A DNA stretch of 64,000 bases from Ruminococcus sp. GTDB taxonomy: Bacteria; Bacillota; Clostridia; Oscillospirales; Ruminococcaceae. Shown piece by piece: positions 5,455 to 38,436 of the stretch (within the stretch, counting starts at the first letter, position 1; every line of letters begins with the position of its first letter). The notes below the pieces were generated by a model. The model did not search any database and was not told the DNA's origin. It saw only the letters and a program-made list of their open reading frames with translations. The translations under genes and the position numbers were made by a program. The stretch spans positions 1-64,000 of the forward strand of contig JAFXSC010000011.1 in NCBI GenBank assembly GCA_017525915.1. The letters are read 5' to 3'.

Positions 5455-5499
5455 TGTCCAATATTCTGTACATACCATGTGCTATAATGATAACAGAAA
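5455..5499 (+). promoter_or_regulatory. TGTACA-box promoter for the 5544 gene
   Basis: TGTCCA at 5455-5460, TGTACA at 5467-5472 (12 bp later), 10 nt, TATAAT at 5483-5488, 5 nt, CAGAAA at 5494-5499. The normal -35 position holds AATATT, so there is no -35 box. Confidence 0.75.
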
Positions 5500-5543
5500 A
5501 ACGAAAACCACTTTAATCGAAAAGAATTAGGAGGAGGAAAATT

Positions 5544-6047
5544 ATGAAGATGACATCCGCACAGGCAGCCAAGTTGCTCCGTCAGCTCAAAGAAGAATTG
5601 TGTGCTCTTCAGGTTCGTGAAAACAATTCCCGAAGCTTTCTTGCATCTCTCGATGAAGATCCTGAATATGCACGTCCAGACTATGATTACAATGCTATGA
5701 AGGAGAAAATGAACGCAGTAGAGGTTAAGATACGAAAATTAAAGCATATTATCAATGTTTTTAATACTACTACTATTATTCCTGAATTTGACATTACGAT
5801 CGACGAGATGCTTGTATTAATTCCTCAACTTACAGCCAATTGTTCGAGGTTGGCGAAAATGAAGGATGTACTTCCTAAAGTGCGTGAAATGTCTGGATAC
5901 AGAAGCAACATTATTGACTATCGCTATGTGAACTATGATATCGAACAGGTAAAAAAGGATTATACAGAGCTTTATAATAAGCTTGCCAAAGCACAGACAG
6001 CTCTTGATTATGTGAATAGCACCGTAGAAATGGAGGTCGATATATAA
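5544..6047 (+). CDS. Helical coiled-coil protein, DIP1984-like
   Basis: 167-aa soluble protein. Residues 1-75 form a coiled coil, followed by TTTIIPEFDITIDEMLVLIPQLTANCSRL, which recalls the DIP1984/DUF6847 family of uncharacterised proteins, and a second coiled coil at the C-terminus. ATG 5544 has AGGAGGAGG just upstream. It is transcribed alone from a TGTACA-box promoter, placing it in the proposed damage regulon. The family call is tentative and the function unknown. Confidence 0.7.
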   Translation: MKMTSAQAAKLLRQLKEELCALQVRENNSRSFLASLDEDPEYARPDYDYNAMKEKMNAVEVKIRKLKHIINVFNTTTIIPEFDITIDEMLVLIPQLTANCSRLAKMKDVLPKVREMSGYRSNIIDYRYVNYDIEQVKKDYTELYNKLAKAQTALDYVNSTVEMEVDI

Positions 6048-6282
6048 CTAAGTTTTCCGTTTGTGATTCGCTATTCCTTATGAGATATCATAAGTCAGGG
6101 GTTAATGTTTAAGTCGTCCGTTATTTATTTGTAGTGTGTCACCTATTGTAAATGATAATGTTTAGTGTTATGGATACGTAGCAAGATACACAAAGTCGGC
6201 TATCTGTTTAAAACAGTAAAAACAATCACAATAAAAACCTGAATCAGCAGCTGAGGTACGGTTACAAGCCGCTGACATACTA

Positions 6283-6314
6283 ATCCCCGCCTTTAAGGCT
6301 CTTAAAGGCGGGGA
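6283..6314 (-). terminator. Terminator of the 8668-to-6318 operon
   Basis: ATCCCCGCCTTTAAG pairs with CTTAAAGGCGGGGAT across a short loop, just downstream of the minus-strand stop at 6318. I see no gene between 6048 and 6282. Confidence 0.75.
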
Positions 6315-6317
6315 TAT

Positions 6318-7190
6318 TCATAACCATTTTTCGTTAATATCAACCTTATTGCTGTACAGTTCTATAAAATCTGGAATACTCATTTTCCCTGTAAGGACAT
6401 TACTGAGCATCCGCAAAGGCTTTGGACATCCCGGATAGTCAGAAAGATCAGCCATTTCAGCTTTAAGTATAGGGACTTGAATATGTCCAAATGCACCGCC
6501 GCAGGAGTGAAAATCAAGACTGCCGAATTGCATAGCGTAGAATGACATATCGCTGTCATCAAGCGGCTTTGTGCGGGCTTTATTCTTATAGGTAGTAAGC
6601 TCGGTGATAACAGCGTATTTGTTGCCATAGCTTATAATGTCTCCGATTTTGTAATTATGAGGAATTTCGGCGAAAGCGTGGTGCAGTTCCTCCTCATGCT
6701 GCATATTATATACGTCTATCCCATATATTTCGTCTTGCGGGTTGATATTATATCTGTTGAGACAGCGGAGAGAGTTCCTTACACGTTCAGAAATGCGATA
6801 GTATTCATCTGGTTCGGCAGTTGATCTGGCTATTTTGAAAGCATCATCCCAGTTATCAAATATAGCTCCGTCATATGGAGAATTCTCATTCTCAATAACG
6901 AAAACTGTTCCGTCGTGCGCGACTTTCAGACAATTAAGAGCTATCGTAAGGTACAGCAGATACTGTTCAGCTCTCTTTCTGAAATCCTTATTATGCCATT
7001 CATATTCACCGGCTGCAAGCTCCTTGTCAGAATGGGCATCCAGTCGTTCACGAATGGCTTTAATTTTATCATCAAGAGAACGGCAGGTTGACTGAGAGAT
7101 AAGTATGCACTCTACTGCCGGAGATAGTTCCTTTCCTTCCATCATTTTTCGCAGAGTTGAAGAATCAATATATGAAGTATTTTGTTCCAT
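6318..7190 (-). CDS. Uncharacterised protein, third gene of a phosphatase operon
   Basis: 290 aa, no membrane segment. The N-terminal helical part contains SPAVECILISQSTCRSLDDKI, and a later beta-rich part contains YKIGDIISYGNKYAVITEL. The upstream neighbour shows the same order of features at low identity (ALEMAFIINDCKTLPLCEKHR, then KKGDILV), so the two look like diverged paralogues. ATG 7190 (RBS AAAGGAAG) overlaps the end of that gene by 26 bp. Fragments of this gene occur at 5281-5330 and 56225-56325. No known domain recognised. Confidence 0.75.
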   Translation of the reverse strand: MEQNTSYIDSSTLRKMMEGKELSPAVECILISQSTCRSLDDKIKAIRERLDAHSDKELAAGEYEWHNKDFRKRAEQYLLYLTIALNCLKVAHDGTVFVIENENSPYDGAIFDNWDDAFKIARSTAEPDEYYRISERVRNSLRCLNRYNINPQDEIYGIDVYNMQHEEELHHAFAEIPHNYKIGDIISYGNKYAVITELTTYKNKARTKPLDDSDMSFYAMQFGSLDFHSCGGAFGHIQVPILKAEMADLSDYPGCPKPLRMLSNVLTGKMSIPDFIELYSNKVDINEKWL

Positions 7191-8224: not shown

Positions 8225-8668
8225 TCAGTCTCCTTTCTGTTCATTATCGTAAACAACTCTCAGCAGGGAATATACATACTCGTTGTAAGAAAGGTCTTCA
8301 ACAGGCGGTAAGTCGAACATATATCTTGCAAACACACCAACCGCCCTTGAACGTGAAACTCCGGCATAGCAGTGTATCAGAAGAGTATCAACGTCCATAT
8401 GATCCTGTATAAAGTGTACTATCTGTCTTGCCTGAGACGAAGTTATAAGGCTGCATCCTCCGCCTGGCTCTTCAACATCGTCGAAATAAACTGTAAGCAC
8501 ACCTTTGCAATAGCGTGTCTCGTTGAATTCAAAACCGAATCCGCCGGGATCCTGAATCGAAATAACGGCATATGTATCAGTCTTTTTTGCGTATTCGTAC
8601 TGGATATGCTTCAGAACATACTTTACAGCCTCGTCAACAGATGTAACTAAGATTCTGGGTTTTTTCAT
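8225..8668 (-). CDS. Dual-specificity-type protein phosphatase
   Basis: 147-aa cysteine-dependent phosphatase. The signature LLIHCYAGVSRSRAVG (HCX5RS) lies near residue 100, with a conserved aspartate region VYFDDVEEP before it. The N-terminus MKKPRILVTSVDEAVKYV is shared with a second copy at 37382-37840. ATG 8668 is preceded by AGGAGGTGG at 8677-8685. The frame extends further upstream, but that part runs through the promoter and the divergent gene. It opens a three-gene operon, driven by a TGTACA-like promoter that faces the one for the 8771 gene. Substrate unknown; it could act on protein or on a small phosphorylated signal. Confidence 0.85.
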   Translation of the reverse strand: MKKPRILVTSVDEAVKYVLKHIQYEYAKKTDTYAVISIQDPGGFGFEFNETRYCKGVLTVYFDDVEEPGGGCSLITSSQARQIVHFIQDHMDVDTLLIHCYAGVSRSRAVGVFARYMFDLPPVEDLSYNEYVYSLLRVVYDNEQKGD

Positions 8669-8679
8669 TGTATTTCCAC

Positions 8680-8713
8680 CTCCTGAAAAGAGTATAGCAT
8701 CTGTTGCGTATAA
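8680..8713 (-). promoter_or_regulatory. TGTACA-type promoter for the 8668 operon (weak match)
   Basis: Reading the minus strand: TTATACGCA, 8 nt, TATACT (8696-8691), 5 nt, CAGGAG. Spacing is identical to the other sites, and there is no -35 hexamer. Its box lies 4 bp from the box of the plus-strand promoter. Confidence 0.6.
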
Positions 8714-8717
8714 TAAT

Positions 8718-8751
8718 TTAGACATAAGCTGTGATAAGATGTTTACAGAAA
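8718..8751 (+). promoter_or_regulatory. TGTACA-type promoter for the 8771 gene
   Basis: TTAGACATA at 8718-8726, 8 nt, TAAGAT at 8735-8740, 5 nt, CAGAAA at 8746-8751. There is no -35 hexamer. Confidence 0.65.
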
Positions 8752-8770
8752 CGAAGAGGAGCGTGAGAAT

Positions 8771-9196
8771 ATGAGAGGACGTGCTATTATTCCTGCATCT
8801 GAGATAACTGATGTAAGGCATAAAATCAAAGTGATAAATCCGGATTATACGGTAATTAGCAATATTTATATTAATAATGACAAAGCATACATTGTATATC
8901 CGCCTTATGAAGATGAAGCAAGATTTATCGAAGCAATATGCCGGTTTGCTGCGTTCTATGAACTTGATACCTTTTACTATATCGACAGTACTGGTGACAA
9001 GTGGAGAGTTGACAATAATGGCAATAGGATCGCTTGTCCTGAGCTTGTTATTAATGAGGAAAATGCAGATGTTATGGGACATATCCCTGCAATGCTTTAC
9101 GGCTGGCTGGTGTATAAACGCTATCCGGAGCTTATGAAAATAAGGGACGTTGAGTCTGGGCAGAAAAAATTAAATGATTCCGGACAGCAGATATGA
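8771..9196 (+). CDS. Uncharacterised protein upstream of hen1
   Basis: 141 aa, soluble, mixed alpha/beta. No family recognised. The N-terminus contains RAIIPASEITDVRHKIKVINPDYTVI and the middle YELDTFYYIDSTGDKWRVDNNG. ATG 8771 follows GAAGAGGAG. It precedes hen1 by 35 bp, and a second TGTACA-type promoter for hen1 overlaps its stop, so it is expressed with the RNA-repair genes. Confidence 0.75.
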   Translation: MRGRAIIPASEITDVRHKIKVINPDYTVISNIYINNDKAYIVYPPYEDEARFIEAICRFAAFYELDTFYYIDSTGDKWRVDNNGNRIACPELVINEENADVMGHIPAMLYGWLVYKRYPELMKIRDVESGQKKLNDSGQQI

Positions 9197-9213
9197 TAGA
9201 ATGAAATCAGAAA
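9181..9213 (+). promoter_or_regulatory. TGTACA-type promoter for hen1-pnkp
   Basis: CGGACA at 9181-9186, 10 nt, TAGAAT at 9197-9202, 5 nt, CAGAAA at 9208-9213. The box is degenerate, but the spacing and CAGAAA are exact. It overlaps the 8771 stop codon. Confidence 0.55.
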
Positions 9214-9231: not shown

Positions 9232-10581
9232 ATGCTTATTACGATCACATATGAGGGCAAAAATACACAGGAGCTTGGTTATCTTCTCCATAAAAATCCG
9301 AACTCTGCTCAGGAATTCGAGCTTACGTTCGGCAAAGCCTATGTTTTCTATCCGGAGGTAACAAATAAACGCACTACTGCCGCATTGGTCCTTGACATTA
9401 ACTCTGTTGATCTTGCAAAGGGTAAAGAAAATTCACCGAACACAGGACTTTTCACATATGTCAATGACCGCCCGTATACCTGCAACTCCTTTATGAGCGT
9501 TGCACTTAATCGTGTTTTCGGAACTGCAATGAAGGGCAGATGTGACAAGAAACAGGAGCTTGCAGATACACCTATTGACCTTACGGCAGCTGTATATATG
9601 CTTCGCTGCGAGAGTGATGAAGATGCTCGGAATATCTTTGAGCCGCTTGGATATGAAGTGAACATTGAGAGGGGAATGCTTGATGAAAGATTCCATGAGT
9701 GGGGCAAAAGCCCGTATATAAATATAACGCTGAAAGGCAAAGTCAGACTTGCTGAACTGCTCAATCACCTATATGTGCTGATACCGTTTTTTGACGGAAA
9801 CAAGCACTATTACATAGATGATTCTGAGGTTGAGAAGCTTCTCAGTCACGGCGGTGAGTGGCTGAAGAATCACCCTTACCGTGAGACTATCGTAAGAGGA
9901 TATTTCAACAATATTCATAGTATTACGAAGTCAGCGCTTACACAGCTTGCAGATGATGAGGACTCTGAAAATGATTCACCGAAGCATAAGAGACTTGATA
10001 CAGAGCGCATTGATACCGTGGCACAGGTTGTGCTTGACAGTGGTGCCAAAACTGTACTTGATCTCGGCTGCGGTGAGGGAAAATATGCTGCAAGACTTGC
10101 AGCCGAGCCTCAGATAGTTCGCATTACAGAAGCCGACGTTGCAGTCAAGATACTTGGAGCTGCCAAAGCAAGAGTTGAAAAGCTGCCGCAGTTTCAGCGG
10201 GATAAGGTGGACTTCATACAGGCATCCGCACTGTGCCGTGACAGGCGGTTTGAGAGCTATGACTGCTGCCTGCTTATTGAAGTCATCGAGCATATTGACG
10301 AGGAGAGACTGCCGGTTCTGGAGCGTGTATTGTTTGAATTTGCACATCCGAAGACGGTCATAGTTACAACCCCGAACGCTGAGTACAACAGCAATTATCA
10401 GTTCCTGCCGGACGGAGAGCTTCGCCACGATGACCACAGATTTGAGTGGAACAGGGAGAAGTTCAGCAAGTGGGCTGAGAGCGTATGCGAAAAATACGGT
10501 TACAAGGTTAAAATAACAGGCATTGGAAACGAGGACGGAAATTTAGGCGCACCAACGCAGATGGGAGTGTTTGAGTTATGA
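9232..10581 (+). CDS. hen1: Hen1 RNA 3'-terminal 2'-O-methyltransferase
   Basis: 449 aa. In the known bacterial Pnkp/Hen1 system, Hen1 methylates the 2'-OH at the cleavage site before ligation, so the repaired RNA resists a second cut. The N-terminal half (1-240) matches the bacterial-specific domain that activates the Pnkp ligase (start MLITITYEGKNTQELGYLLHKNP). The methyltransferase domain has the SAM motif VLDLGCGEGKYA near residue 275, the metal-binding EVIEH near 349, and DHRFEW near 400. It overlaps pnkp by 4 nt (ATGA), the usual coupled arrangement. RBS CAGGGAGTGATAAT precedes ATG 9232. Length is normal. Confidence 0.95.
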   Translation: MLITITYEGKNTQELGYLLHKNPNSAQEFELTFGKAYVFYPEVTNKRTTAALVLDINSVDLAKGKENSPNTGLFTYVNDRPYTCNSFMSVALNRVFGTAMKGRCDKKQELADTPIDLTAAVYMLRCESDEDARNIFEPLGYEVNIERGMLDERFHEWGKSPYINITLKGKVRLAELLNHLYVLIPFFDGNKHYYIDDSEVEKLLSHGGEWLKNHPYRETIVRGYFNNIHSITKSALTQLADDEDSENDSPKHKRLDTERIDTVAQVVLDSGAKTVLDLGCGEGKYAARLAAEPQIVRITEADVAVKILGAAKARVEKLPQFQRDKVDFIQASALCRDRRFESYDCCLLIEVIEHIDEERLPVLERVLFEFAHPKTVIVTTPNAEYNSNYQFLPDGELRHDDHRFEWNREKFSKWAESVCEKYGYKVKITGIGNEDGNLGAPTQMGVFEL

Positions 10582-13118
10582 GGATTGAGATACCACAGCT
10601 TGCACTGATTACTCTTGTAGGAGCATCTGCAAGCGGAAAGACTACATTTGCACACAAGTATTTCAAGGACACAGAGGTGCTTTCTTCTGATTTTTTCAGA
10701 GGAATGATAGGTGATGACGAGAATGATCAGTCCGTCACCAATGAGGCATTCGAGCTGCTCTTCAAGGCTGCTGATATGCGCCTTACACTCGGCAGATCCG
10801 CCGTTATTGATGCCACCAATTTACAGAAGAATCCCCGCAAAAATATTCTTGATCTTGCTAAGAAGCAGAATGTTCACGCCGTTGCAATCGTGCTTGATAT
10901 ACCGCTGAAAACTCTCATTGAGCGCAATGCTCAGCGTGGTGACAGGGAGTGTTCGGAGGGCGTTCTCCGCCGCCACTGTGAGCAGCTCCACTCAAGTATA
11001 AGGATATTGAAAAAAGAGGGCTTCCGCTATGTTTATGTAGTAAGCGAGAATGATATTGATAATGTTGAGATAGTGCGCACTAAGCTCTGGAATGACAAGC
11101 GTGAGGAGAGCGGTCCTTTTGATATTATCGGCGACGTTCACGGCTGTTTTGATGAGCTTGCAGAGCTTCTTGACAGGCTTGGCTACATGAAGAATGATGA
11201 GGGCATCTATGCTCATCCGGAGGGCAGAAAAGCCGTATTTTTAGGCGATCTCTGTGACAGGGGCAACAGAAATACCGATGTGCTGAAAGCAGTTATGTCT
11301 ATGGTGAAAAGCGGAAATGCAATAGCAGTACCCGGGAACCACGATGTTAAGCTTGTAAAGTATCTGCTTGGAAAGAACGTAAGGACTGAAAACGGACTTG
11401 ATACGACGATCGCTGAAATTGATAATGAGACACCTGAGTTCAGGAAGGAAGTATGCGATTTTCTTGACGGACTTGTGAGCCATTACGTTTTCGATGAGGG
11501 CAGGCTTGTTGTGTCTCACGCTGGAATAAAGCCGGAGTATATCGGCAGGGCATCTGCTGCTGTCCGTGACTTCTGTATATTCGGCGATGTGGACGGAAGA
11601 GTAGAAGAGGACGGTATGCCTGTTCGTAAGGACTGGGCTGCCGATTACCGTGGAAAAGCTGTGATCGTGTACGGTCACACACCGGTAGGGGAGGTGAGGA
11701 ACCGCAATAACACCTATTGTATCGACACTGGCTGCGTATTTGGCGGAATTCTTACCGCTCTGCGCTATCCTGAGATGACAACGGTGAGCGTTGCAGCAAA
11801 GGAGGTTTATAGCGAGCCAGCAAGACCGTTTGCAGTAAGTGATACTGCGGACGATATACCTGTAGCAGAGGAGCTGCTGGGAAAGCTCCGTATTGAGACT
11901 GAGCTTATCCCGTCCATAACTGTTCAGGAGGAGAATACTGCCGCTGCGTTTGAGGTGATGTCCAGATTTTCGGCTGATCCTCGCTGGCTGATATATCTCC
12001 CGCCCACAATGTCTCCCTGCGAGACAAGTGAAGAGCCGGATTACCTTGAGTATCCGACTGAAGCGTTTGCGTACTACCGGAAAAACGGCATCAGAAATGT
12101 TGTCTGCGAGAAGAAGCATATGGGTTCAAGGGCAGTTGTGGTGCTGTGCAGGAATGCAGAGACAGCGAAGAAGCGTTTCAGAGTTGATGATGGCAGCCGT
12201 GGTATGATATATACCCGTACCGGAAGAAGATTTTTCGATGACAGGAACACTGAGAATGCGCTGCTTGACCGCCTTGATAAAGTGCTTGACAAGAGCGGTT
12301 TCTGGAACGATTTTGATACGGACTGGGTTTGCCTTGATGCTGAACTGATGCCGTGGAGCGAGAAGGCTCAGGTACTTATAAAGGAGCAGTATGCTGCTAC
12401 CGGACACGCCGCTGTTCACAGCCTTGATACAGTGATGAAAGAGCTGTTTAAGGCTTATGAAAGGGATAAGGATGCCAATACCGAGCATTCGGTAAGCACC
12501 GAGACACTTGTGTATAAATACGGTTCCAAGCAGCGAGCAGCCGAGGGCTTTTACAAGGCTTACGGTAATTACTGCTGGAAGGTCACAAGCGTTGACGATA
12601 TACGCATAGCGCCGTTCCATATACTTGCCTGCGAGGGAAGTGTATTTACTGACAAGCCGCACAAATGGCATATGGACAATATTGAGAAATACATCACCGG
12701 CATTGACAACATCTTTATGATGACAGAGCATATTTACGTTGACACCGAGGACTATGAAAGCGTCACAGCCGGAATAAACTGGTGGAAAGGACTTACCGGA
12801 AAAGGCGGCGAGGGAATGGTCGTAAAGCCGGAATTCTATACCGCTTTCAACGGAAAGAAGCTGCTCCAGCCGGCAGTGAAGTGCCGAGGACGTGAGTACC
12901 TGCGTATTATTTATGGAGCTGAGTATCTCAGCAGGGAGAACCTGCCGAGACTGAAAAAGCGTTCGCTGAAACGCAAGCGTGATCTTGCGCTGAAAGAGTT
13001 CGCACTGGGAGTTGAGGGACTGAAAAGATTCGTAAAAAATGAGCCGCTTTACCGCATAAACCAGTGTGCATTCGGTGTTCTCGCAATGGAGAGCGAGCCT
13101 ACCGATCCGAGATTATGA
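10578..13118 (+). CDS. pnkp: Pnkp polynucleotide kinase-phosphatase-ligase
   Basis: 846 aa, close to the roughly 870 aa of the clostridial enzyme. Three domains are visible. The 5' kinase has Walker A GASASGKT at residues 15-22. The metallophosphatase for 2',3'-cyclic ends has GDVHG (185-189), GDLCDRG (about 223), GNHD (about 253) and YGHTP (about 365). The C-terminal nonclassical ligase has the adenylated lysine in KHMGSR (Lys513). Together with Hen1 it heals and seals RNA cut by ribotoxins. Translation is coupled to hen1 by a 4-nt overlap. All catalytic motifs look intact. Confidence 0.96.
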   Translation: MRIEIPQLALITLVGASASGKTTFAHKYFKDTEVLSSDFFRGMIGDDENDQSVTNEAFELLFKAADMRLTLGRSAVIDATNLQKNPRKNILDLAKKQNVHAVAIVLDIPLKTLIERNAQRGDRECSEGVLRRHCEQLHSSIRILKKEGFRYVYVVSENDIDNVEIVRTKLWNDKREESGPFDIIGDVHGCFDELAELLDRLGYMKNDEGIYAHPEGRKAVFLGDLCDRGNRNTDVLKAVMSMVKSGNAIAVPGNHDVKLVKYLLGKNVRTENGLDTTIAEIDNETPEFRKEVCDFLDGLVSHYVFDEGRLVVSHAGIKPEYIGRASAAVRDFCIFGDVDGRVEEDGMPVRKDWAADYRGKAVIVYGHTPVGEVRNRNNTYCIDTGCVFGGILTALRYPEMTTVSVAAKEVYSEPARPFAVSDTADDIPVAEELLGKLRIETELIPSITVQEENTAAAFEVMSRFSADPRWLIYLPPTMSPCETSEEPDYLEYPTEAFAYYRKNGIRNVVCEKKHMGSRAVVVLCRNAETAKKRFRVDDGSRGMIYTRTGRRFFDDRNTENALLDRLDKVLDKSGFWNDFDTDWVCLDAELMPWSEKAQVLIKEQYAATGHAAVHSLDTVMKELFKAYERDKDANTEHSVSTETLVYKYGSKQRAAEGFYKAYGNYCWKVTSVDDIRIAPFHILACEGSVFTDKPHKWHMDNIEKYITGIDNIFMMTEHIYVDTEDYESVTAGINWWKGLTGKGGEGMVVKPEFYTAFNGKKLLQPAVKCRGREYLRIIYGAEYLSRENLPRLKKRSLKRKRDLALKEFALGVEGLKRFVKNEPLYRINQCAFGVLAMESEPTDPRL

Positions 13119-13170: not shown

Positions 13171-13215
13171 TGCACATTTATCTGGACATAAGATGTGCTA
13201 TTATATATACAGAAA
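13171..13215 (+). promoter_or_regulatory. TGTACA-box promoter for the AAA+ operon
   Basis: TGCACA at 13171-13176, TGGACA at 13183-13188 (12 bp later), 10 nt, TATTAT at 13199-13204, 5 nt, CAGAAA at 13210-13215. There is no -35 hexamer (ATTTAT at that position). Confidence 0.75.
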
Positions 13216-13227
13216 GAGGTGAACGGT

Positions 13228-28370: not shown

Positions 28371-28375
28371 AATTG

Positions 28376-28467: not shown

Positions 28468-29211
28468 ATGAAAACTGAACTTTGCGAGATACAGAACGCA
28501 TACACAATTAAAGCCAAACGCTTTGAGCCGGACAAAAGTATAGGCGGATATGTCCTTGCACTTCATGGCTTTTGCGGGGATATGGATAGCAGCTTTATAA
28601 GGCAGCTTGCAAAACGTATGTGCAAGCAGAATCTGGCTGTCGTTGCATTCAATTTTCCCGGACACGGCAGCAGTGATGCTGATATTTATTTCAGCCTTGA
28701 AAACTGCCGGAAAGATATGCTCGACGTAATGCGATATGCAAACAGGCTCTATGGAGTTTCAGCGCCGGAAGCCGTGATCGGAACGAGCTTCGGGGGCTAT
28801 GTCACACTTCTCAATATGCCGGATATACCGCAATATACTGTCATTGTTCTAAGAGCGCCTGCAGTGAATATGAAACGCTCTTTTGAGAAGTTCATAGCTG
28901 ATATGGACTCTTTCAAAAAGCGTGGATGGGAAGAAATGGGCTTTGAGAGGAAGATCAAAGTTCCATACGGCTTCTACACTGAGCTTGAACAGAACAATAT
29001 CCTTGAACGTGATATGATTCGTGAAATGCTCATAGTTCACGGTGACTGTGATGACGTTGTTCTGCCGGAGGATATGTGGACATTCTGCGGCTGCAATCCG
29101 CTTGCAAGACTTGAAGTCATAGGCGGTGCTGACCATCGTTTCAAGGGCAAAGGACAGCTTGAAAAAGTATTTGATATTATTGATAATTACCTATTTTCAG
29201 AGGAGGGCTAA
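28468..29211 (+). CDS. Alpha/beta-hydrolase (serine esterase-like)
   Basis: 247 aa. Catalytic triad candidates: Ser in GTSFGGYV (near residue 111), Asp in HGDCDDVV, His in GGADHRF. The oxyanion region HGFCGDMDS and the FNFPGHGSS loop are typical of the fold. It is cytoplasmic, with no signal peptide. It is followed after 2 bp by the WYL regulator gene and then the NADAR gene. Substrate unknown; in this setting an ADP-ribosyl ester or other nucleotide ester is conceivable, which is inference only. Confidence 0.85.
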   Translation: MKTELCEIQNAYTIKAKRFEPDKSIGGYVLALHGFCGDMDSSFIRQLAKRMCKQNLAVVAFNFPGHGSSDADIYFSLENCRKDMLDVMRYANRLYGVSAPEAVIGTSFGGYVTLLNMPDIPQYTVIVLRAPAVNMKRSFEKFIADMDSFKKRGWEEMGFERKIKVPYGFYTELEQNNILERDMIREMLIVHGDCDDVVLPEDMWTFCGCNPLARLEVIGGADHRFKGKGQLEKVFDIIDNYLFSEEG

Positions 29212-29213
29212 CT

Positions 29214-30770
29214 ATGGCAAAGGGAACCGGTGACAGAACATTTTTCCACGAAACAGTGCTTGAGATCCTTAATGAGACTTCTCCTGAGAAGCCTATGCAG
29301 AAAAAGCGTATGCTTGAAATCCTGAAACAGCGTTATGATATCACACCTACAAGAACTACCCTTGACAGAAAGCTCGCAGATCTTGAAACTAAGGGATATA
29401 ACCTTGTAAATGCCGGCAGAAAGGGATTCTACCTTGAAAGAAGCGATGATTCTCTGTCTGACGGTGAACTTCGTATCCTCATTGACAGCATTATGTACTC
29501 AAAGGTCGTAACTGAAGATGATTCTCCGGCTATAATAGATAAGATCGCTAAACTCGGTTCGGGGGATTTTCAGAAGGAAATGAAAAAGCGATCGCACGTT
29601 GCCAAAGACATTAAAAAAGATGTTTACTGGGGAACTGTGGACAGCGTTGAACTTGTACAGAAGGCGATTTTTACGGGAAAACAGATATCCTGTAATTATA
29701 TTCTGAGTTTTGACAGCTACGAATTTGATTACAAATTTGCAGAAAATGTAGTGATCAATCCCTATGAGCTTGCTTTTTCAAACGGAAAATATTTCTTGCT
29801 CTGCTCATATGAGAATGATGAGGGACTTAGTGTGCTTCGTGTGGACAGGCTTGATCTCATTGATGTGTTATCATCAAATTGTATTGAGAATGATGCGCTT
29901 AAAAAGGTGAAAGATCAGAACCTCCAGAGTTATATCTACTCTCAGCCGGAGCTTAAAGGCGGTCAGCCTGAAAGCTTTGATCTGCTCTGCTATCCGGAGG
30001 GGATAGAGGCGGTTTATGATGCGTTTGGCAGTTCAAATATACGAGATATGATATCTCGACCAGAAAACTATGACGATCCTGATACGAAACTTATCTCTGT
30101 AAGAACTACCCGTGAGGCTATTAAGTCATGGGCTGTATTCCACGCTGATTCCGTAGTTATAATAAAGCCGCAGGAGCTCAGAGATGAGATAGTAGAAGCA
30201 CTTAAAACTGCTGAACATACATATTTGAAGTCTGGCAAGCCGTCGAGAATACGTTCCTGGATAGCTCGTTCACTGGACGAAGCTATTCGTGAGGTGAAGA
30301 ACTCTGGGAAAAAGGCGGTACACTATACTGGTCACGGCAAGAAAAAGCAGCTTGAGAAGATAGACCTTGCAGATTATGATATTACAGGTTTAAGGGATCT
30401 TTCACTATGGTGCTGTGATGTTAAATGCAGTAAGAGCGACAGTGTTTATCCTGATATGAAATATCTGTATTTCATTCGAGGAGCTTTTACACCGGATATT
30501 TACCAACATTTTCCGTCTTTAACACATATAACAGTTTCAGGCAGTGATATCAATAACATTGACTTCATTAAACGATATGATAAACTATATGCACTGCGTA
30601 TAGTTGAGTGTGGGAATGTTACTGATTTTTCGCCTGTATTTGGACTGAACGAACTGAAAGTGTTTGAAACAGACAGTGAGCATTTTAATGAAGAAATGGT
30701 TGAAAAGCTGCGTGAGAAGTTCCCTGATTGTAAGATAAGAATAGATGAACCACGCAAGAAAAGAGGTTGA
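29214..30770 (+). CDS. WYL-domain transcription regulator with C-terminal extension
   Basis: 518 aa. Residues 1-80 form a winged helix-turn-helix (KKRMLEILKQRYDITPTRTTLDRKLADLE). The WYL domain spans about 150-250, with ISCNYILSFDSYEFDYKF and VINPYELAFSNGKYFLLCSYE, and a WCX-like region runs to about 335. The last 180 residues look like a small leucine-rich-repeat domain (DITGLRDLSLWCCDVKCS, FPSLTHITVSGSDINNIDF), unusual for the family. WYL proteins such as PafBC sense nucleic-acid ligands and activate DNA-damage promoters that lack a -35. This gene is the only clear DNA-binding regulator in the island and is my candidate for control of the TGTACA promoters. Confidence 0.88.
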   Translation: MAKGTGDRTFFHETVLEILNETSPEKPMQKKRMLEILKQRYDITPTRTTLDRKLADLETKGYNLVNAGRKGFYLERSDDSLSDGELRILIDSIMYSKVVTEDDSPAIIDKIAKLGSGDFQKEMKKRSHVAKDIKKDVYWGTVDSVELVQKAIFTGKQISCNYILSFDSYEFDYKFAENVVINPYELAFSNGKYFLLCSYENDEGLSVLRVDRLDLIDVLSSNCIENDALKKVKDQNLQSYIYSQPELKGGQPESFDLLCYPEGIEAVYDAFGSSNIRDMISRPENYDDPDTKLISVRTTREAIKSWAVFHADSVVIIKPQELRDEIVEALKTAEHTYLKSGKPSRIRSWIARSLDEAIREVKNSGKKAVHYTGHGKKKQLEKIDLADYDITGLRDLSLWCCDVKCSKSDSVYPDMKYLYFIRGAFTPDIYQHFPSLTHITVSGSDINNIDFIKRYDKLYALRIVECGNVTDFSPVFGLNELKVFETDSEHFNEEMVEKLREKFPDCKIRIDEPRKKRG

Positions 30771-30774
30771 TCAT

Positions 30775-31413
30775 ATGGCAGTCAGACCTGCATTTTACGT
30801 TAAGGACAGCAATGTGGTTAGCCGTGATGTGAGCTTTGAGTGGTTTGCAGGCTTTTCACTTGCACAGAAGCAGCGTTCTATTGCTGCGATGCACAATGCT
30901 CTTATCGCTGCGGACAGCTCTACTGTTCCGCTTGAAATAAGCACTAAGGGTACTGATCCGTTGGGAGTGAAGCTCAGTGCGTTCAACCTCAAACTTGACG
31001 GCTATGCACTGGAGAATGTGTTTCAGTCCTCGAAGATATTTGAGAACGGCGGACCGTACCGTGACTTGCTTGATGTTCACCCGAAGGAAGCAAAGCGTGA
31101 CGAGCGGATACGCAATTCCGGAAGAATAGTTGGATTTAAATATGCCGGAAATGACTTCCAGACTGAGCCTAAAACAGCCTTTTATGACTATATCTATTTC
31201 AGCGCAGTCAAGCAGTCGCTGACAGCGGATGAGATTCAGAATATCCGGAAATACAGCCATTTCACTGACATTGAGTTCAATCCTGCCAAGAGCCTTAACA
31301 CGCAGGCGAGGACTGCCGCTATAATCCGGTTTATGCTTGATGTTTACGGTGAATTGCCGCAGCTCAGCGTTGATGAGTTTATTGAGTTTCATAAGAAATG
31401 TGTTAAAGCATAA
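30775..31413 (+). CDS. NADAR-type protein (DarT1-associated antitoxin-like, DUF6977)
   Basis: 212 aa. FEWFAGFSLAQKQRSI, LGVKLSAFNLKLDG, ALENVFQSSKIFENGGPYRDLL and the C-terminal HFTDIEFNPAKSLNTQARTAA match, from memory, the family annotated as DarT1-associated NADAR antitoxins. Those are predicted to remove ADP-ribose from nucleic acid bases. No DarT toxin gene lies next to it here. ATG 30775 follows AAGAGG, 4 bp after the WYL stop. Third gene of the hydrolase-WYL operon. Confidence 0.75.
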   Translation: MAVRPAFYVKDSNVVSRDVSFEWFAGFSLAQKQRSIAAMHNALIAADSSTVPLEISTKGTDPLGVKLSAFNLKLDGYALENVFQSSKIFENGGPYRDLLDVHPKEAKRDERIRNSGRIVGFKYAGNDFQTEPKTAFYDYIYFSAVKQSLTADEIQNIRKYSHFTDIEFNPAKSLNTQARTAAIIRFMLDVYGELPQLSVDEFIEFHKKCVKA

Positions 31414-31996: not shown

Positions 31997-33484
31997 TTAT
32001 CCAAGCGACTGGCAGTATGCACCTGCAAACAGTCCAGTCAGAATAACGGCATAGTTAAGTTCCGTGCGTCCTTCGGTCAGTTCATAGATCTTTTCAAGGC
32101 ACTTCATAAAAGCATCATCAGGTATTCGGTGTCCGTTATACGGACGTACTGTTTCTATCAGTGCATAAGCAGCAAGACAAAGCAAATTAACGGGATCATC
32201 ATTGGTTGTGGGTACATATTTGTCAATATTCCAGAATTTTTCAAACTCTGAAAGTCCTTCCAGATCCTTATAACGATGTTCAAAGAAGCAGCGAAGTATA
32301 GTCATATTCTCACAGTGTCCGCACTCCAGTAGTGAACCCATATAGAAATATGAAGCATACAAACAGGCGGTTTCAAATTCATTACCGTTCCATATGTTGT
32401 TCTCTCTCATCATAGTTTCATACTGCTTGAAATGCTCAGCATATTCCTCATAAATAAAGCTTCCGAACTCTTCAAATCTTCTTGGAAGCTGGCAGAATTT
32501 CGGTGTATATCCATTCCTCTCGGCAAGGAATTCCTCAGCTTTTTTCATTCCGAGGTAAGCTCTTTCCATTTCAGGTTTTGCATACTCACTTCCTTTAGTT
32601 CCATTTTTGTAGAATTCCCAATAGTCACGCTGTATCGTTCTGTAATCCTTGTATTTTTCAGGAATCGGTCTTTCGCCTATGGTTATGCCGTCAATGCTGT
32701 TGAAACCAAAATCATTGCCATAATGATCCTGTATTGTGTACTCATCTTCATTATCACTGTACATCGAGAAACTCATACTTCCAACATCTGAAAAGCTCGA
32801 TAATTCGGCTATTTCAGGAACACAATAATAGAACTGCACATATTCAACATCTTCTATATCAGGAAGATACATTGATTCAAGAAATGTTTCAACGTCAAAA
32901 TCAAGGCGCATACCGTTTTTTAACATTATCTTACACTGCCTGGCACCTAAAAAATCCAGTCCTCCAACTGTACATTCACGGTCGTGGCATACGTTATATC
33001 TTATCTGATCAAACATTATTTCAAGCATTTTTTTACAGTATTCCATTGGAGAAAGACAGTGAAGCAAAGAATATTTGACCTGAGTGTGCTTTATCTTCAG
33101 CATTGTGTGAATATGGACGTTTTTAGGTACATCTGCACCTGCAAAATTGAGATCATAGCATATCGCAAGTTCGGCAGCAATATTTACTGCCTCATTATAT
33201 CTGTCATCGTGAACAACATAAACATCATCAAGATCAAAGCAGCGCTCGCAGAGACGTATAATCTTATCCGCATCCCATACCTTGAATAATAATCCCTCAT
33301 CGTCCATCGGAATATCGGCAACATCTACACAGCCAGTTTCTCTTCTGTGAGTTGTTCTGAAGGATATTTCAGGCTTGCGGTATTTGAAGTCGTCCTTGAA
33401 AACATTGATAATAGCGTATTTTTCCTTCTTAGTATTAAATGTTCTCACTGCCTCATCAAGACTGATAACAAAGATATTTTTCAT
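31997..33484 (-). CDS. Large protein with an N-terminal phosphatase-like domain lacking the cysteine
   Basis: 495 aa. Residues 1-125 follow the phosphatases at 8225 and 37382: IFVISLDEAVRTF and YAIINVF at the start, then DVYVVHDDRYNEAVNIAAELA where the enzymes have DTLLIHCYAGVSRSRAVGVFA. Both Cys and Arg of the active loop are missing. The remaining 370 residues are helical and acidic, with no recognised domain. ATG 33484 has AAGGAG 9 bp upstream; ATG 33490 is too close. The Fic/Doc gene follows in the same operon. Confidence 0.7.
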   Translation of the reverse strand: MKNIFVISLDEAVRTFNTKKEKYAIINVFKDDFKYRKPEISFRTTHRRETGCVDVADIPMDDEGLLFKVWDADKIIRLCERCFDLDDVYVVHDDRYNEAVNIAAELAICYDLNFAGADVPKNVHIHTMLKIKHTQVKYSLLHCLSPMEYCKKMLEIMFDQIRYNVCHDRECTVGGLDFLGARQCKIMLKNGMRLDFDVETFLESMYLPDIEDVEYVQFYYCVPEIAELSSFSDVGSMSFSMYSDNEDEYTIQDHYGNDFGFNSIDGITIGERPIPEKYKDYRTIQRDYWEFYKNGTKGSEYAKPEMERAYLGMKKAEEFLAERNGYTPKFCQLPRRFEEFGSFIYEEYAEHFKQYETMMRENNIWNGNEFETACLYASYFYMGSLLECGHCENMTILRCFFEHRYKDLEGLSEFEKFWNIDKYVPTTNDDPVNLLCLAAYALIETVRPYNGHRIPDDAFMKCLEKIYELTEGRTELNYAVILTGLFAGAYCQSLG

Positions 33485-33504
33485 ATACATACACTCCTTT
33501 TTCA

Positions 33505-33538
33505 TTTCTGAGATCATTATACCACAGGCAAAGTACAA
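33505..33538 (-). promoter_or_regulatory. TGTACA-box promoter for the 33484 operon
   Basis: Minus strand: TTGTACTTT (33538-33530), 8 nt, TATAAT (33521-33516), 5 nt, CAGAAA (33510-33505). No -35 hexamer. Confidence 0.8.
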
Positions 33539-33542
33539 ACTT

Positions 33543-33565
33543 CTGGACACAAGATGTTGTAGAAT
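33543..33565 (+). promoter_or_regulatory. TGTACA-box promoter for the 33609 gene
   Basis: CTGGACACA at 33543-33551, 8 nt, TAGAAT at 33560-33565. The box lies 4 bp from the minus-strand box. CAGAAA at the +5 offset is not kept here. Confidence 0.65.
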
Positions 33566-33608
33566 ACAGATAAGAAAAACCACCACGATCATTAAGGAGA
33601 TGTTTACT

Positions 33609-34091
33609 ATGGGAAAATCGGCTTGCTTCACAGGTCACAGAGAAATATCGGAAAATCCGAAAAAACTGTCACAGAGACTGTATCCTATTCTTGAAAAGCT
33701 CGTAACAGACGAGAAAGTCACGGACTTTTATGCAGGAGGTGCAGTCGGATTTGATACAATTGCAGCTATGAATGTGCTGCGCCTGAGATCAGATCATCCG
33801 GAGGTGAAACTACACCTTGTTTTGCCGTGTTCAAATGAAGAGCAGACAAAAAACTGGAATCCCACACAGAAGTATGACTTCAAGAATATACTTGCGAGAG
33901 CAGACAGTGTGGAATACACCTCAGAGCATTATCACAGTAGGTGTATGAGCATCCGCAATGCACGTCTTGTGGAGAATGCCTCGGACTATTGTATATGCTA
34001 TCTTGATCCTGCACACAGGAGCGGAACTGCTCAGACAGTGGAACTTTCACGAAAGAAAGGACTGAAAGTCATAAATCTCTTTGAAAAGTAA
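33609..34091 (+). CDS. SLOG/DUF1273-like protein
   Basis: 160 aa. The N-terminus SACFTGHREI, then DFYAGGAVGFDTIAAMNVL, LHLVLPCSNEEQ and SDYCICYLDPAHRSGTAQTVELSRKKGLKVINL, match the SLOG family that includes YpsA (DUF1273). These bind nucleotide-like ligands. ATG 33609 is used because AAGGAG ends directly at ATG 33600. It is the second SLOG protein of the island, again on a divergent TGTACA promoter. Confidence 0.82.
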   Translation: MGKSACFTGHREISENPKKLSQRLYPILEKLVTDEKVTDFYAGGAVGFDTIAAMNVLRLRSDHPEVKLHLVLPCSNEEQTKNWNPTQKYDFKNILARADSVEYTSEHYHSRCMSIRNARLVENASDYCICYLDPAHRSGTAQTVELSRKKGLKVINLFEK

Positions 34092-34178: not shown

Positions 34179-34271
34179 ATGACTTACAGTTACAATTATT
34201 CATCATTATCAAAACTAAATATCATTATTAATAAGCATGGAGCTTGCCCGATATGTTCAGCCATGTGCTGA
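34179..34271 (+). CDS. 30-aa leader peptide ending CPICSAMC
   Basis: Too short for routine gene calling. ATG 34179 has a good ribosome site, AAAGGCGGTGA. The peptide has a Tyr/Ser/Asn-rich first half and ends with three cysteine codons in CPICSAMC followed by TGA. A strong terminator hairpin follows 18 bp later, and rtcB starts 73 bp after the peptide stop. The arrangement looks like a transcription attenuator, although a small functional Cys peptide is also possible. No similarity recognised. Confidence 0.55.
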   Translation: MTYSYNYSSLSKLNIIINKHGACPICSAMC

Positions 34272-34330
34272 CGTTTTGCACGCATTTTTAAGCACTCCTG
34301 CGGGAGTGCTTTTTTGTTTATCGGGCGCTC
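34240..34330 (+). promoter_or_regulatory. Structured rtcB leader with terminator
   Basis: GCCCGATA (34246-34253) can pair with TATCGGGC (34319-34326), extended by GAGC (34240-34243) with GCTC (34327-34330). Inside this 12-bp stem lie a small hairpin (TCAGC/GCTGA) and the terminator AAGCACTCC/GGAGTGCTT (34290-34311) followed by a T-run. The 5' strand of the outer stem covers two cysteine codons of the leader peptide, and its 3' strand abuts the rtcB ribosome site. Confidence 0.6.
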
Positions 34331-34344
34331 GGAAAGGAAAAATT

Positions 34345-35547
34345 ATGATCGAATTAAAAGGAAAATACAACTCCGCAAAGGTATTCACCGATGTCATAGA
34401 CGAGAGCGCAATATCCCAGATAATCGAGCTTTGCAACCAGCCGATGAGCGAGGGCGCAAATATCCGTATTATGCCCGATGTTCACGCAGGCGCAGGCTGT
34501 ACTATCGGTACAACTATGACTATCACTGATAAGGTAGTTCCTAATCTCGTTGGCGTTGATATCGGCTGCGGAATGGAGACTGTACGTCTCAAGGAGAAGC
34601 ACATAGAGCTGCAAAAGCTGGACAAGCTGATATATGAAAAGATACCGTCCGGATTTGCTATCCGTGATAAGGCTCACCGTTATAGCGAACAGATAGACCT
34701 CACTGAACTGTACTGCTATGAGAGAATAAAGTCTGCCCGCGCGGAGCTTAGCATCGGCACTCTGGGCGGCGGAAACCACTTCATAGAGGCTGATCAGGGA
34801 GAGGACGGAAGCATATACATCGTTATCCATTCCGGTTCCCGTCATCTTGGTGTTGAGACAGCGAAGTACTATCAGGAGAAGGCATTCTGTGAGATAGCTA
34901 AGAATCGTGACGATGTGAAGGCGCTTATCGAATCCTACAAGGCAATGGGCAAGGAAAAGAAGATAGAAGAAACTCTCAGAAGACTGAAAAATACTGGCAA
35001 GGCTGGTGTACCAAAGCACCTTGCTTATTGCGAGGGTGAACTGTTTAAGCAGTATATCCACGATATGAAGATAGTGCAGAAGTTTGCTATGATAAACCGT
35101 CAGGCAATGATGGACGAGATAATCAAGGGTATGCACCTCCACGTTGAGGAGCAGTTCACTACTATACACAACTACATCGACACTGACACTATGATACTGC
35201 GAAAGGGCGCTGTATCGGCAAATGCAGGCGAAAAGCTGCTCATACCGATAAATATGCGTGACGGCAGCCTTATCTGTACCGGCAAGGGAAATCCGGACTG
35301 GAACTGTTCCGCTCCCCACGGCGCTGGCAGACTTATGTCCCGTTCCGCTGCAAAGCAGAGCTTCACTGTGTCGGAATTCAAGAAGCAGATGGACGGAATC
35401 TATACCACTTCCGTAAACGCAGCTACCCTTGATGAGTGTCCTATGGCATACAAGTCCATAGAGGACATCGTTGACAATATCGGCGATACAGTTGAGATAA
35501 ACGAGATCATCAAGCCTATTTACAACTTCAAGGCAGGTGAAGAATGA
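34345..35547 (+). CDS. rtcB: RtcB RNA ligase
   Basis: 400 aa, usual length for bacterial RtcB. It joins 2',3'-cyclic phosphate or 3'-phosphate RNA ends to 5'-OH ends using GTP and Mn2+. Metal and guanylate motifs: MPDVHAGAGCTIGTT, VGVDIGCGMET, GTLGGGNHFIE, HSGSRHLG and the guanylated-histidine region CSAPHGAGR. ATG 34345 follows GGAAAGGA. It is followed by coupled GNAT and small basic-protein genes. It complements Hen1/Pnkp by ligating similar ends through a different chemistry. Confidence 0.97.
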   Translation: MIELKGKYNSAKVFTDVIDESAISQIIELCNQPMSEGANIRIMPDVHAGAGCTIGTTMTITDKVVPNLVGVDIGCGMETVRLKEKHIELQKLDKLIYEKIPSGFAIRDKAHRYSEQIDLTELYCYERIKSARAELSIGTLGGGNHFIEADQGEDGSIYIVIHSGSRHLGVETAKYYQEKAFCEIAKNRDDVKALIESYKAMGKEKKIEETLRRLKNTGKAGVPKHLAYCEGELFKQYIHDMKIVQKFAMINRQAMMDEIIKGMHLHVEEQFTTIHNYIDTDTMILRKGAVSANAGEKLLIPINMRDGSLICTGKGNPDWNCSAPHGAGRLMSRSAAKQSFTVSEFKKQMDGIYTTSVNAATLDECPMAYKSIEDIVDNIGDTVEINEIIKPIYNFKAGEE

Positions 35548-36041
35548 TAGAAATATCAGTCCTGAACAGTGGCTGCGAGATGTGGAAAACTGTCGCAGAC
35601 TATGCTGAAAAATGTTCGTGGAGAGCCGGAAAACAGCTCTCCACGCTTATGCATACAAATGCTTTTAAGTATTGGGAACGAGTTATTGCCACATTTGAGG
35701 ACGGCGAGCCGGTCGGCTTCTGCACTCTGACTGAAAAGGACGAGCTGCCGCCGGATTTACCGTATACGCCGTTCATTGGATTTGTGTTCATTGAAGAAGA
35801 ACACAGGGGAAAACGGCTGTCGGAAAAAATGATAAGAAAAGCAATAGAAAATGCAGGCACACTTGGCTATGATAAGCTCTATCTTATGAGCGGTGAAACT
35901 GGTCTGTATGAAAAATACGGATTCAGATATATAGACGATTTGGAAACGATATATGGAGACACTGAGCAGTTATACTGCATCAGTACGCACGATCAGGAGG
36001 TCGATGATCAATGGAGAAATTCGTATCTTTCGAGAAAATGA
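35544..36041 (+). CDS. GNAT-family N-acetyltransferase
   Basis: 165 aa. The acetyl-CoA binding segment FIGFVFIEEEHRGKRLSEKMI has the R/Q-x-x-G-x-G/A pattern (HRGKRL). The preceding strand is GEPVGFCTLTEKDE and the C-terminus has GLYEKYGFRYID. It overlaps rtcB by 4 nt (ATGA). Substrate unknown; the tight link to rtcB is worth noting. Confidence 0.85.
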   Translation: MIEISVLNSGCEMWKTVADYAEKCSWRAGKQLSTLMHTNAFKYWERVIATFEDGEPVGFCTLTEKDELPPDLPYTPFIGFVFIEEEHRGKRLSEKMIRKAIENAGTLGYDKLYLMSGETGLYEKYGFRYIDDLETIYGDTEQLYCISTHDQEVDDQWRNSYLSRK

Positions 36042-36208: not shown

Positions 36209-36210
36209 GT

Positions 36211-37385: not shown

Positions 37386-37840
37386 AAGTGCGCTCCTTTC
37401 AGATAGACCTCTTTCAGCAGATCGTAAACATATCTGTTGAATGTTTGGCTTCCAGTATAAGGCTGTCCGAGTAATTCACTTGCAAACGCTCCAACTGCCA
37501 TTGAACGTGACACTCCTGCAAAACAGTGGATAAGCAGAGTATCAACATATGAATTAGCTTGGATAAACGCTATAATCTGCCGTGCCTGAATTTCATCCAT
37601 CAGCTTCAAACCAGCTTCGGGTTTCTCGATATCATCGAAGAAAAGAGTGATTGCTCCCTTGCAGAACTGATTCTGCCGAAGCTCAAAACCGTAACCGTTG
37701 CCGATAGTATCCTGTATTGATATTACAGCGTAAGTCTCAGTGTTCTTAGGGTACTCCGTAACACCGGGTTCGCAGAAATGATCCATAACATAGCGCAATG
37801 CGCCTCTTGATGAAACAACGAGTATTCGTGGCTTTTTCAT
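37382..37840 (-). CDS. Dual-specificity-type protein phosphatase (second copy)
   Basis: 152 aa, paralogue of the enzyme at 8225-8668: both begin MKKPRILV, share YAVISIQD and the ARQIxxFIQ helix, and keep the active loop (here LLIHCFAGVSRSMAVG, HCX5RS). The aspartate region is LFFDDIEKP. ATG 37840 follows AGGGAG; the in-frame GTG 37849 lies within the ribosome site. Second gene of the operon starting at 38293. Catalytic residues are intact. Confidence 0.85.
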   Translation of the reverse strand: MKKPRILVVSSRGALRYVMDHFCEPGVTEYPKNTETYAVISIQDTIGNGYGFELRQNQFCKGAITLFFDDIEKPEAGLKLMDEIQARQIIAFIQANSYVDTLLIHCFAGVSRSMAVGAFASELLGQPYTGSQTFNRYVYDLLKEVYLKGAHL

Positions 37841-37858
37841 ATTCGTCACTCCCTGATC

Positions 37859-38293
37859 TCAGAAATATCCCATATACAGCCTTCGGCGATTTTTGCTGCC
37901 TCTGTGCTTGTAAAGGTTCAGTATCACTACATAGCCTTTATAACCAATTTCAATTATTGGTACAAGAGCATCTTCCAGTGCAGATTCATTGATGTATATT
38001 CCGACACTCTCACTTGTAAAAACAGCACCGTTCTGGCTGGCATATTCTACTATTTCAAAGTTTTGTGTTTCAGCATCGGTGATACATGGGCAGGTGCCTT
38101 CCGGGAACAAGAATACAGTTCCTTTGGTAAATTCAGGCTTTTTCTGCTGCATAAGAGCATTCATAAGTCTTGTTTCCTCGCTGCTGACACCGTCAGTATT
38201 GAGCTTTTCAAGTAAGATACGCCTGTCAGCTATACCTTTTTTACCGGACGGCACATAGATAACTTTATCATATTGCTTTTCATAAGCGTACAT
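37859..38293 (-). CDS. Uncharacterised protein heading the phosphatase-LRR operon
   Basis: 144 aa, mixed alpha/beta with an EFTKGTVFLFPEGTCPCITD segment and a basic C-terminus (KHRGSKNRRRLYMGYF). No domain recognised. ATG 38293 follows AAGAGGTGG. It is transcribed from the minus-strand TGTACA promoter at 38365-38398, followed by a phosphatase and two LRR genes. Confidence 0.7.
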   Translation of the reverse strand: MYAYEKQYDKVIYVPSGKKGIADRRILLEKLNTDGVSSEETRLMNALMQQKKPEFTKGTVFLFPEGTCPCITDAETQNFEIVEYASQNGAVFTSESVGIYINESALEDALVPIIEIGYKGYVVILNLYKHRGSKNRRRLYMGYF

Positions 38294-38364
38294 AGTGTCC
38301 ACCTCTTAGTCAATTTATAGAACATCAGAGCATCAAGGCTCATAACATATATACTCTTTTCCTG

Positions 38365-38398
38365 TTTCTGAGATTATTATATCAAAGGAAGTGTACAG
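38365..38398 (-). promoter_or_regulatory. TGTACA-box promoter for the 38293 operon
   Basis: Minus strand: CTGTACACT (38398-38390), 8 nt, TATAAT (38381-38376), 5 nt, CAGAAA (38370-38365). No -35 hexamer. Confidence 0.8.
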
Positions 38399-38402
38399 AA
38401 TA

Positions 38403-38436
38403 ATGTACATAGCAAATGCTATTATGGTATCAGAAA
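38403..38436 (+). promoter_or_regulatory. TGTACA-box promoter for the AAA-VWA operon
   Basis: ATGTACATA at 38403-38411, 8 nt, TATTAT at 38420-38425, 5 nt, CAGAAA at 38431-38436. The box lies 4 bp from the minus-strand box. Confidence 0.8.

Follow-up and report, generated by a model that had tools for sequence, protein, structure and literature searches.

The island and its shared promoter element

The window analysed here is a 64,000-nucleotide stretch of a Ruminococcus sp. genome (assembly GCA_017525915.1, contig JAFXSC010000011.1, positions 1 to 64,000 of the forward strand). It holds an island of genes that includes the RNA-repair genes for Hen1, Pnkp and RtcB, a NADAR gene and the gene of a WYL-domain regulator, and twelve promoters of this island share one element: an 18-bp near-palindrome, TGTMCA-N6-TGKACA, followed after exactly 10 nt by a -10 box of the form TANNNT (alignment of the twelve promoters). 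With the -10 box counted as -12 to -7, the near-palindrome spans -40 to -23 and is centred at -31.5; its downstream end lies 10 nt ahead of the -10 box, neither overlapping nor following it. An earlier, sequence-only reading of this DNA had listed twelve promoters with a TGTACA-like box, N10 and a -10 box, and so had described one half of the element and missed the upstream half-site. Eleven of its twelve stand as given; for the twelfth, the number 8691 on the minus strand marks the distal end; its box (TATACG) lies at 8712, and with that change the promoter fits. The upstream half-site, 12 nt from the box, is perfect in seven promoters, has one mismatch in three, is poor in one (8707) and is absent from one (9181, ahead of Hen1-Pnkp). 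A single element near -26 would leave no such second half-site; one is present in 11 of the 12, seven of them perfect.

In every one of the twelve promoters an open reading frame (ORF) of at least 80 codons, with a Shine-Dalgarno-like word, starts 18-82 nt past the -10 box, and the genes that follow include those for RNA repair, SLOG, NADAR, Fic and AAA proteins, as the earlier reading had it. The leftmost operator-promoter (5455-5488, plus strand; TGTCCA-N6-TGTACA-N10-TATAAT) precedes an ORF at 5544-6047. Four divergent pairs (8691/8707, 20840/20856, 33516/33532 and 38376/38392) each have a single palindrome common to both promoters. In the first, 8691-8724 on the minus strand (TGTCTA-N6-TATACG-N10-TATACT) faces a DSPc-like ORF (8668-8225) with further genes following it, and 8707-8740 on the plus strand (TAGACA-N10-TAAGAT) faces an ORF at 8771-9196; both have three mismatches to the consensus. 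The one-half-site promoter at 9169-9202 (plus; CGGACA-N10-TAGAAT) serves the RNA-repair methyltransferase Hen1 (9232-10581, plus) and the kinase-phosphatase-ligase Pnkp (10578-13118, plus), and 13171-13204 (plus; TGCACA-N6-TGGACA-N10-TATTAT) serves an AAA ATPase (13228-15210). The second pair consists of 20840-20873 (minus; TGTACA-N6-TGTACA-N10-TAGAAT; ORF 20821-20393) and 20856-20889 (plus; -10 box TATAAT; ORF 20908-21393). In the third, 33516-33549 (minus; TGTCCA-N6-TGTACT-N10-TATAAT) precedes a 497-aa ORF (33490-31997) and then Fic (31978-31448), and 33532-33565 (plus; TAGAAT) precedes SLOG (33609-34091), the RNA ligase RtcB (34237-35547, plus) and a GNAT gene (35544-36041). In the fourth, 38376-38409 (minus; TGTACA-N6-TGTACA-N10-TATAAT) precedes a cupin-like gene (38293-37859), then a DSPc-like gene and two LRR genes, and 38392-38425 (plus; TATTAT) precedes AAA_5 (38477-39541) and DUF2201 (39538-41385).

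The remaining operator-promoter, 28376-28409 on the plus strand (TGTCCA-N6-TGTACA-N10-TATAAT), stands ahead of the operon that encodes the WYL protein itself (28468-31413): an alpha/beta hydrolase (28468-29211), the WYL regulator (29214-30770) and a NADAR protein of the NADAR-DarT1 family (30745-31413), all on the plus strand; autoregulation is predicted. The reverse reading of this palindrome (28360-28393, minus) points toward the AddB-like gene and offers a poor -10 box, TTTAGT, at N10. The operon in that direction, AddAB-like being the name given in this analysis to a UvrD/PDDEXK pair, has an ordinary promoter, TTGACA-N17-TATAAT, at 28320-28360 on the minus strand, adjoining the 28376 palindrome. 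The spacer of this ordinary promoter contains TGTACA at N8.

How far the sites exceed chance

A position matrix was built from 11 sites, with the twelfth kept out of it. Leave-one-out scores range from 13.8 (the Hen1 promoter, the weakest) to 38.8, the left-out twelfth site scores 18.8, and the best score elsewhere, in 260 kb of the same genome, is 9.6; twenty shuffles of the island yielded a total of 14 sites scoring at least 9. A scan of the whole genome (3,091,626 bases) places all six exact matches and all five one-mismatch matches inside the island, so that the claim of a shared promoter class tying the island together is upheld. These 11 matches account for nine of the twelve promoters; one of them is the 5455 palindrome read in reverse, and another is 28360 minus, with its poor -10 box. 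The promoters at 8691, 8707 and 9169 rest on the matrix and the spacing, since the first two have three mismatches and the last is not among the matches listed. All 13 two-mismatch matches fall outside the island, and at up to three mismatches the genome total (236) is about that of a reversed control (227); the strict form of the pattern is nearly confined to the island. The 98 other genomes hold one further exact match, in genome G048, where a WYL gene lies 1.9 kb away.

The distance to the -10 box emerges also when the -10 box is not used in finding the sites. The window has six palindromes that depart from TGTMCA-N6-TGKACA at no more than one position; in all six TANNNT lies exactly N10 away on one side or both, and in three of them on both. 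None of the 13 palindromes with two mismatches has it. Comparison with 82 intergenic exact TATAAT sequences of the same genome bears out two further claims of the sequence-only reading. A -35 box (at least four of six matches to TTGACA, spacer 16-18) is found in none of the twelve promoters vs 33 of the 82 (Fisher 0.007), and CAGAA or CAGGA stands exactly 5 nt past the -10 box in nine of the twelve vs none of the 82. The extended -10 dinucleotide (TGn) occurs in nine of the twelve and in 24 of the 82. As to the CAGAAA/CAGGAG word, transcripts would begin AGAAA or AGGAG.

That the sites are copies of one recently duplicated promoter, or a chance alignment, is accordingly a very improbable account of them. 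Duplication has occurred in the islands, as paralogous DSPc-like and LRR genes attest. Yet the sites differ outside the box and the -10 box (and CAGAAA), they mostly precede unrelated genes, and the same geometry recurs elsewhere with other letters (see below); against chance speak the matrix, the genome scan and the palindromes found independently of the -10 box.

The WYL protein of the island

The WYL regulator, the proposed activator, is a 518-residue protein with winged helix-turn-helix (HTH), WYL and WCX domains in one chain, and a C-terminal LRR-like part. The HTH occupies residues 11-80 (AlphaFold pLDDT, the predicted local distance difference test, 58-80 per block), and the PADLOC WYL profile matches at 68 bits. 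Residues from about 390 to 500 resemble LRR proteins (a profile match to LRR chains), and separate LRR genes lie in the same regulon; to our knowledge, such a C-terminal part is unusual among WYL proteins.

Of 40 window ORFs scanned, it alone was recognised as a DNA-binding regulator; the other 39 gave no HTH match at E≤0.01. A second WYL gene was not found (one of the 40 window ORFs; in its own genome one match at E≤1e-3, the protein itself), a result that leaves room for weaker WYL genes elsewhere in the genome. Its own operon carries the element. On these grounds, and on those of the next two sections, the earlier proposal that the WYL protein is the regulator is retained: it is the best candidate and the likely regulator, predicted from sequence to bind the sites directly.

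Another regulator, either an unannotated small protein or an alternative sigma factor, might instead read the box, with the WYL protein a bystander. Several small ORFs have no Pfam match, some island ORFs lay outside the scan, and the box together with TATAAT might pass for a sigma-factor promoter. The -10 box is nevertheless of the housekeeping type, and the box is part of a near-palindrome that is used both ways. Added to the lack of any other HTH match in the scanned ORFs, the change of the site's letters along with the WYL protein in a second species and the same geometry ahead of other WYL genes make this an improbable explanation.

A counterpart island in Ruminococcus flavefaciens

One clear ortholog of the WYL protein was found among 98 other genomes, in R. 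flavefaciens YRD2003 (42% identical; the window genome is assigned to the same genus group). No ortholog besides the window's own was found among 394 genomes of the order (E≤1e-40); of two scans of contig collections the first found none and the second one, from the same R. flavefaciens strain; none was found in viral contigs, and in plasmids only distant relatives (four records).

The R. flavefaciens ortholog lies in an island with an AddAB-like pair, DSPc-like proteins, AAA, the hydrolase (65% identical to that of the window), WYL, a fused NADAR, SLOG, RtcB (86% identical) and LRR genes; Hen1 was not found in the YRD2003 genome. The palindrome in this island reads TGTCTT-N6-AAGACA, with N6 and N10 as in the window, and all four genome matches to TGTCTT-N6-AAGACA-N10-TANNNT with at most one mismatch (three palindromes) fall on the island contig. 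One palindrome is flanked by the counterparts of the window genes 8225-9082 and 13195-15210; the others lie ahead of the counterpart of 31997-33631 and ahead of a paralog of that counterpart, and a weaker one (three mismatches) is located 93 nt ahead of the hydrolase-WYL genes. Judged from the two sequences, the letters of the site have changed along with the WYL protein, and the geometry has not changed. In R. flavefaciens a single gene (contig C36, 39788-42061) encodes both the WYL regulator and a NADAR domain as one fusion protein, for which the window has two adjacent genes.

The same geometry ahead of other WYL genes

The spacing was also sought ahead of WYL genes at large, with TG-N(m)-CA-N(n)-TANNNT tallied for each of 361 layouts; the island's layout is (14,10). 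A tree (FastTree, 134 proteins, ORFs under 250 aa dropped) shows that sites of this layout belong mainly to one branch, with 67 rows and a support of 95, which includes the window protein. Within this clade, counted over 65 genes with the window and R. flavefaciens proteins left out, (14,10) is the commonest of the 361 layouts, at 27 genes; the next has 17, and the other cells have a mean of 4.4 (standard deviation 2.3). Outside the clade it is found at 7 of 67 genes (Fisher 5e-5). The corresponding count over 76 WYL ORFs is 27, with the next layout at 14. Besides the forty lower-ranked WYL genes treated below, two sets stand apart from the loci that gave rise to the rule. The first is a fresh set of near relatives from other orders (ORFs with E under 1e-20 to the WYL protein of genome G050; 17 of 17 loci kept), in which (14,10) is again the top layout, at 6 of 17 genes (mean 1.36, standard deviation 1.09). 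The second is a pair of viral contigs with clade WYL genes: one has two good sites of the TGTACA or TGTGCA type and the other has one plausible site. Strict palindromes peak at the predicted offset in 45 upstream regions (9 sites; shuffles 0-4) and at 48 WYL loci (11 sites; mean 3.85), and some of these sites resemble terminators.

On plasmid pCY186 of Butyrivibrio proteoclasticus there are three TGTGCA/TGCACA-type sites within 9 kb: one precedes an AAA-McrC-WYL gene run, one a second WYL gene, and one a gene at locus position 5095. The plasmids of Eubacterium eligens and R. albus each have a single match that looks like chance. In G050, one site of this layout lies ahead of a NADAR gene. At one further locus (L183, contig C2 of genome G556, 1482-2674) five readings of three palindromes surround a divergent pair of WYL genes, and letters of the TGTACA type occur there together with letters of the TGTTCC type; perhaps two regulators read two alphabets there.

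Clade promoters resemble those of the island in having a recognisable -35 box in only 1 of 37; TGn is present in 10 of 37. CAG at its island position is found in only 1 of the 37, so that the placement of CAGAAA/CAGGAG is, as far as these sequences go, seemingly private to the island. A rule covering all WYL proteins was considered and rejected on the counts of 2 in 40 lower-ranked genes and 7 in 67 genes outside the clade. What can be proposed is a narrower grammar: that a large clostridial WYL clade uses TG-N14-CA, N10, TANNNT, with the outer TG/CA and the distances fixed and the inner letters varying with each protein, one member of the clade serving here to switch on DNA repair, RNA repair and ADP-ribose reversal jointly as a damage response. 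We regard this as an evenly balanced proposition. No such operator rule for Clostridia was found in the literature, as represented by openly licensed papers. If the grammar is true, the regulons of many uncharacterised WYL proteins could become readable from sequence.

Likeness to known WYL regulators

The mycobacterial PafBC motif is a 9-mer followed by N8 and TANNNT, and the sequence-only reading had held the island's layout to be identical to it. This identity is rejected because the island has a second half-site and a single WYL gene was found; its near-palindrome lies at -40 to -23 and is shared between divergent promoters.

The comparisons that follow refer to the portions consulted of six sources (PMC10693628, PMC11804915, PMC9122588, PMC9122601, PMC9503650, PMC12340889). 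PafBC is described as a heterodimer that does not bind promoter DNA without polymerase; its contact with the promoter is made by PafB alone, at a single element near -26/-24. Common to PafBC and the island are a WYL protein, -35-less promoters and an element near -26; PafBC promoters are read by the housekeeping sigma. PafBC differs in having two WYL subunits encoded by adjacent genes, compared with the one WYL gene found here, and in reading one element instead of a near-palindrome. DriD of Caulobacter crescentus is a WYL homodimer that activates upon binding single-stranded DNA and whose two DNA-binding domains sandwich sigma4 (according to a preprint). Its sites stand at one distance from a weak -10 box with G-14, the -35 box is poor, and its own promoter is bidirectional. 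DriD and the island have in common a palindrome over the -35 region, a fixed distance to the -10 box, a poor -35 box and a winged HTH-WYL-WCX protein, and G at -14 and a bidirectional promoter of the regulator's own gene are listed as further likenesses. The palindrome centres nearly coincide, at -31 for DriD (a hand alignment of three printed promoters on G-14) and at -31.5 here. The letters differ (ATACGAC-N7-GTCGTAT vs TGTMCA-N6-TGKACA), as do the targets (scattered DNA-damage genes vs one contiguous RNA/DNA-repair and NADAR island), and the domain list given for DriD lacks the LRR-like C-terminal part (and the NADAR fusion of R. flavefaciens). The clade profile matches nine solved chains, over the WYL-WCX part only: DriD 8tp8 (E 4e-7), four like it, which were taken as DriD too on the strength of the same stretch and near-equal scores, and four of PafBC, two of which are named only as transcriptional regulator-like. 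On this analysis the closest known mechanism would be that of DriD rather than that of PafBC.

SiwR of Mycobacterium smegmatis, a WYL homodimer termed an activator, acts on an imperfect palindrome of 19 bp that lies between the -35 and -10 regions of the neighbouring operon; in contrast to the island, the portion consulted gives one target operon and does not mention a fixed-spacing regulon. CapW and BrxR are WYL dimers that act on inverted repeats ahead of their own defence loci, as would be the case here. Both are repressors. The palindromes of CapW overlap the -10 box and the repeats of BrxR come after it, whereas the island's sites do neither.

Proposed activation in place of a -35 box

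The fixed distance and the missing -35 box together argue for an activator that stands in for the -35 box. The island is then probably one regulon in which a WYL dimer, bound to the near-palindrome, replaces the missing -35 box and activates, and we hold this with good confidence. The dimer would bind at -40 to -23, where sigma region 4 normally meets the -35 box, and would keep RNA polymerase with its housekeeping sigma in a set position, the role that DriD has in Caulobacter; a good and often extended -10 box would complete the promoter, and a palindrome between two -10 boxes could serve both directions. The WYL protein would drive its own hydrolase-WYL-NADAR operon, and the response could therefore amplify itself. 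The signal may be a product of nucleic-acid damage (single-stranded DNA or RNA ends) bound by the WYL domain. This reading predicts a regulator, its operator and its regulon for an island in which Hen1-Pnkp, RtcB, NADAR, SLOG and the AddAB-like pair lie together, and it offers a testable sequence rule for locating the targets of one WYL clade, and it suggests that the DriD way of replacing the -35 box is not confined to Caulobacter.

The main rival is that the WYL protein is a repressor: the extended -10 box would fire alone, and the dimer would block sigma4 until set free by a ligand, either ADP-ribose or an RNA end. The repressor precedents of CapW and BrxR favour it, as does a published prediction, in the part of the source consulted, that the WYL factors of ADP-ribose systems are negative regulators; a NADAR gene lies in the WYL operon, and the TGn of nine of the twelve promoters could work without a -35 box. 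A repressor, we infer, would need neither exact spacing nor loss of the -35 box, yet N10 is kept at six of six palindromes and the -35 box is gone from all twelve promoters; the CapW and BrxR operators sit elsewhere relative to the -10 box, and only the minority of clade promoters noted above have TGn. Repression is on balance unlikely.

Other findings, too, weigh against activation by a WYL dimer, or against its extension to the clade. The Hen1 promoter at 9169 has one half-site only. The Pfam WYL and WCX scores of the protein (21.7 and 19.5 bits) are just under the curated cut-offs (21.8 and 23.9), and its AlphaFold model is poor beyond the HTH (mean pLDDT 49), too poor for folds to be compared. 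It sits on a long branch, of which the tree program warned, so that its exact place in the tree is unsure. In the clade, 38 of the 65 genes have no site in the stretch read; the counts for the 76 ORFs and 65 genes are partly circular, since they include L080, L084, L090, L014, L091 and the loci that shaped the rule. The lead in the fresh set is narrow (the next layout is at 5 of 17 genes), no peak emerges from the forty lower-ranked WYL genes (2 of 40), and six of those forty, later placed inside the clade, have no site. Two of three named plasmid loci (L195 and L196) have no convincing site. Strict palindromes show no peak at 26 further WYL loci (one site at the predicted offset, mean 0.91); the mixed strict-palindrome result may arise because the outer TG/CA is kept and the inner bases pair imperfectly.

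Neighbouring genes

Hen1 is present in 14 of the 99 genomes searched, the window's own included. In the other 13 there are six matches to the bare layout, in four of the fetched stretches and wherever they lie relative to Hen1, and no clear palindrome. An AbiEii-type nucleotidyltransferase toxin gene lies just past the island (41465-42325, minus), and a match to the PADLOC candidate defence family HEC-07 (E 5e-41) lies at 16732-18621, minus; the matrix scan finds no element of this promoter class upstream of either. At the left edge of the window, a large serine recombinase gene (38-1666) suggests that the segment is mobile.

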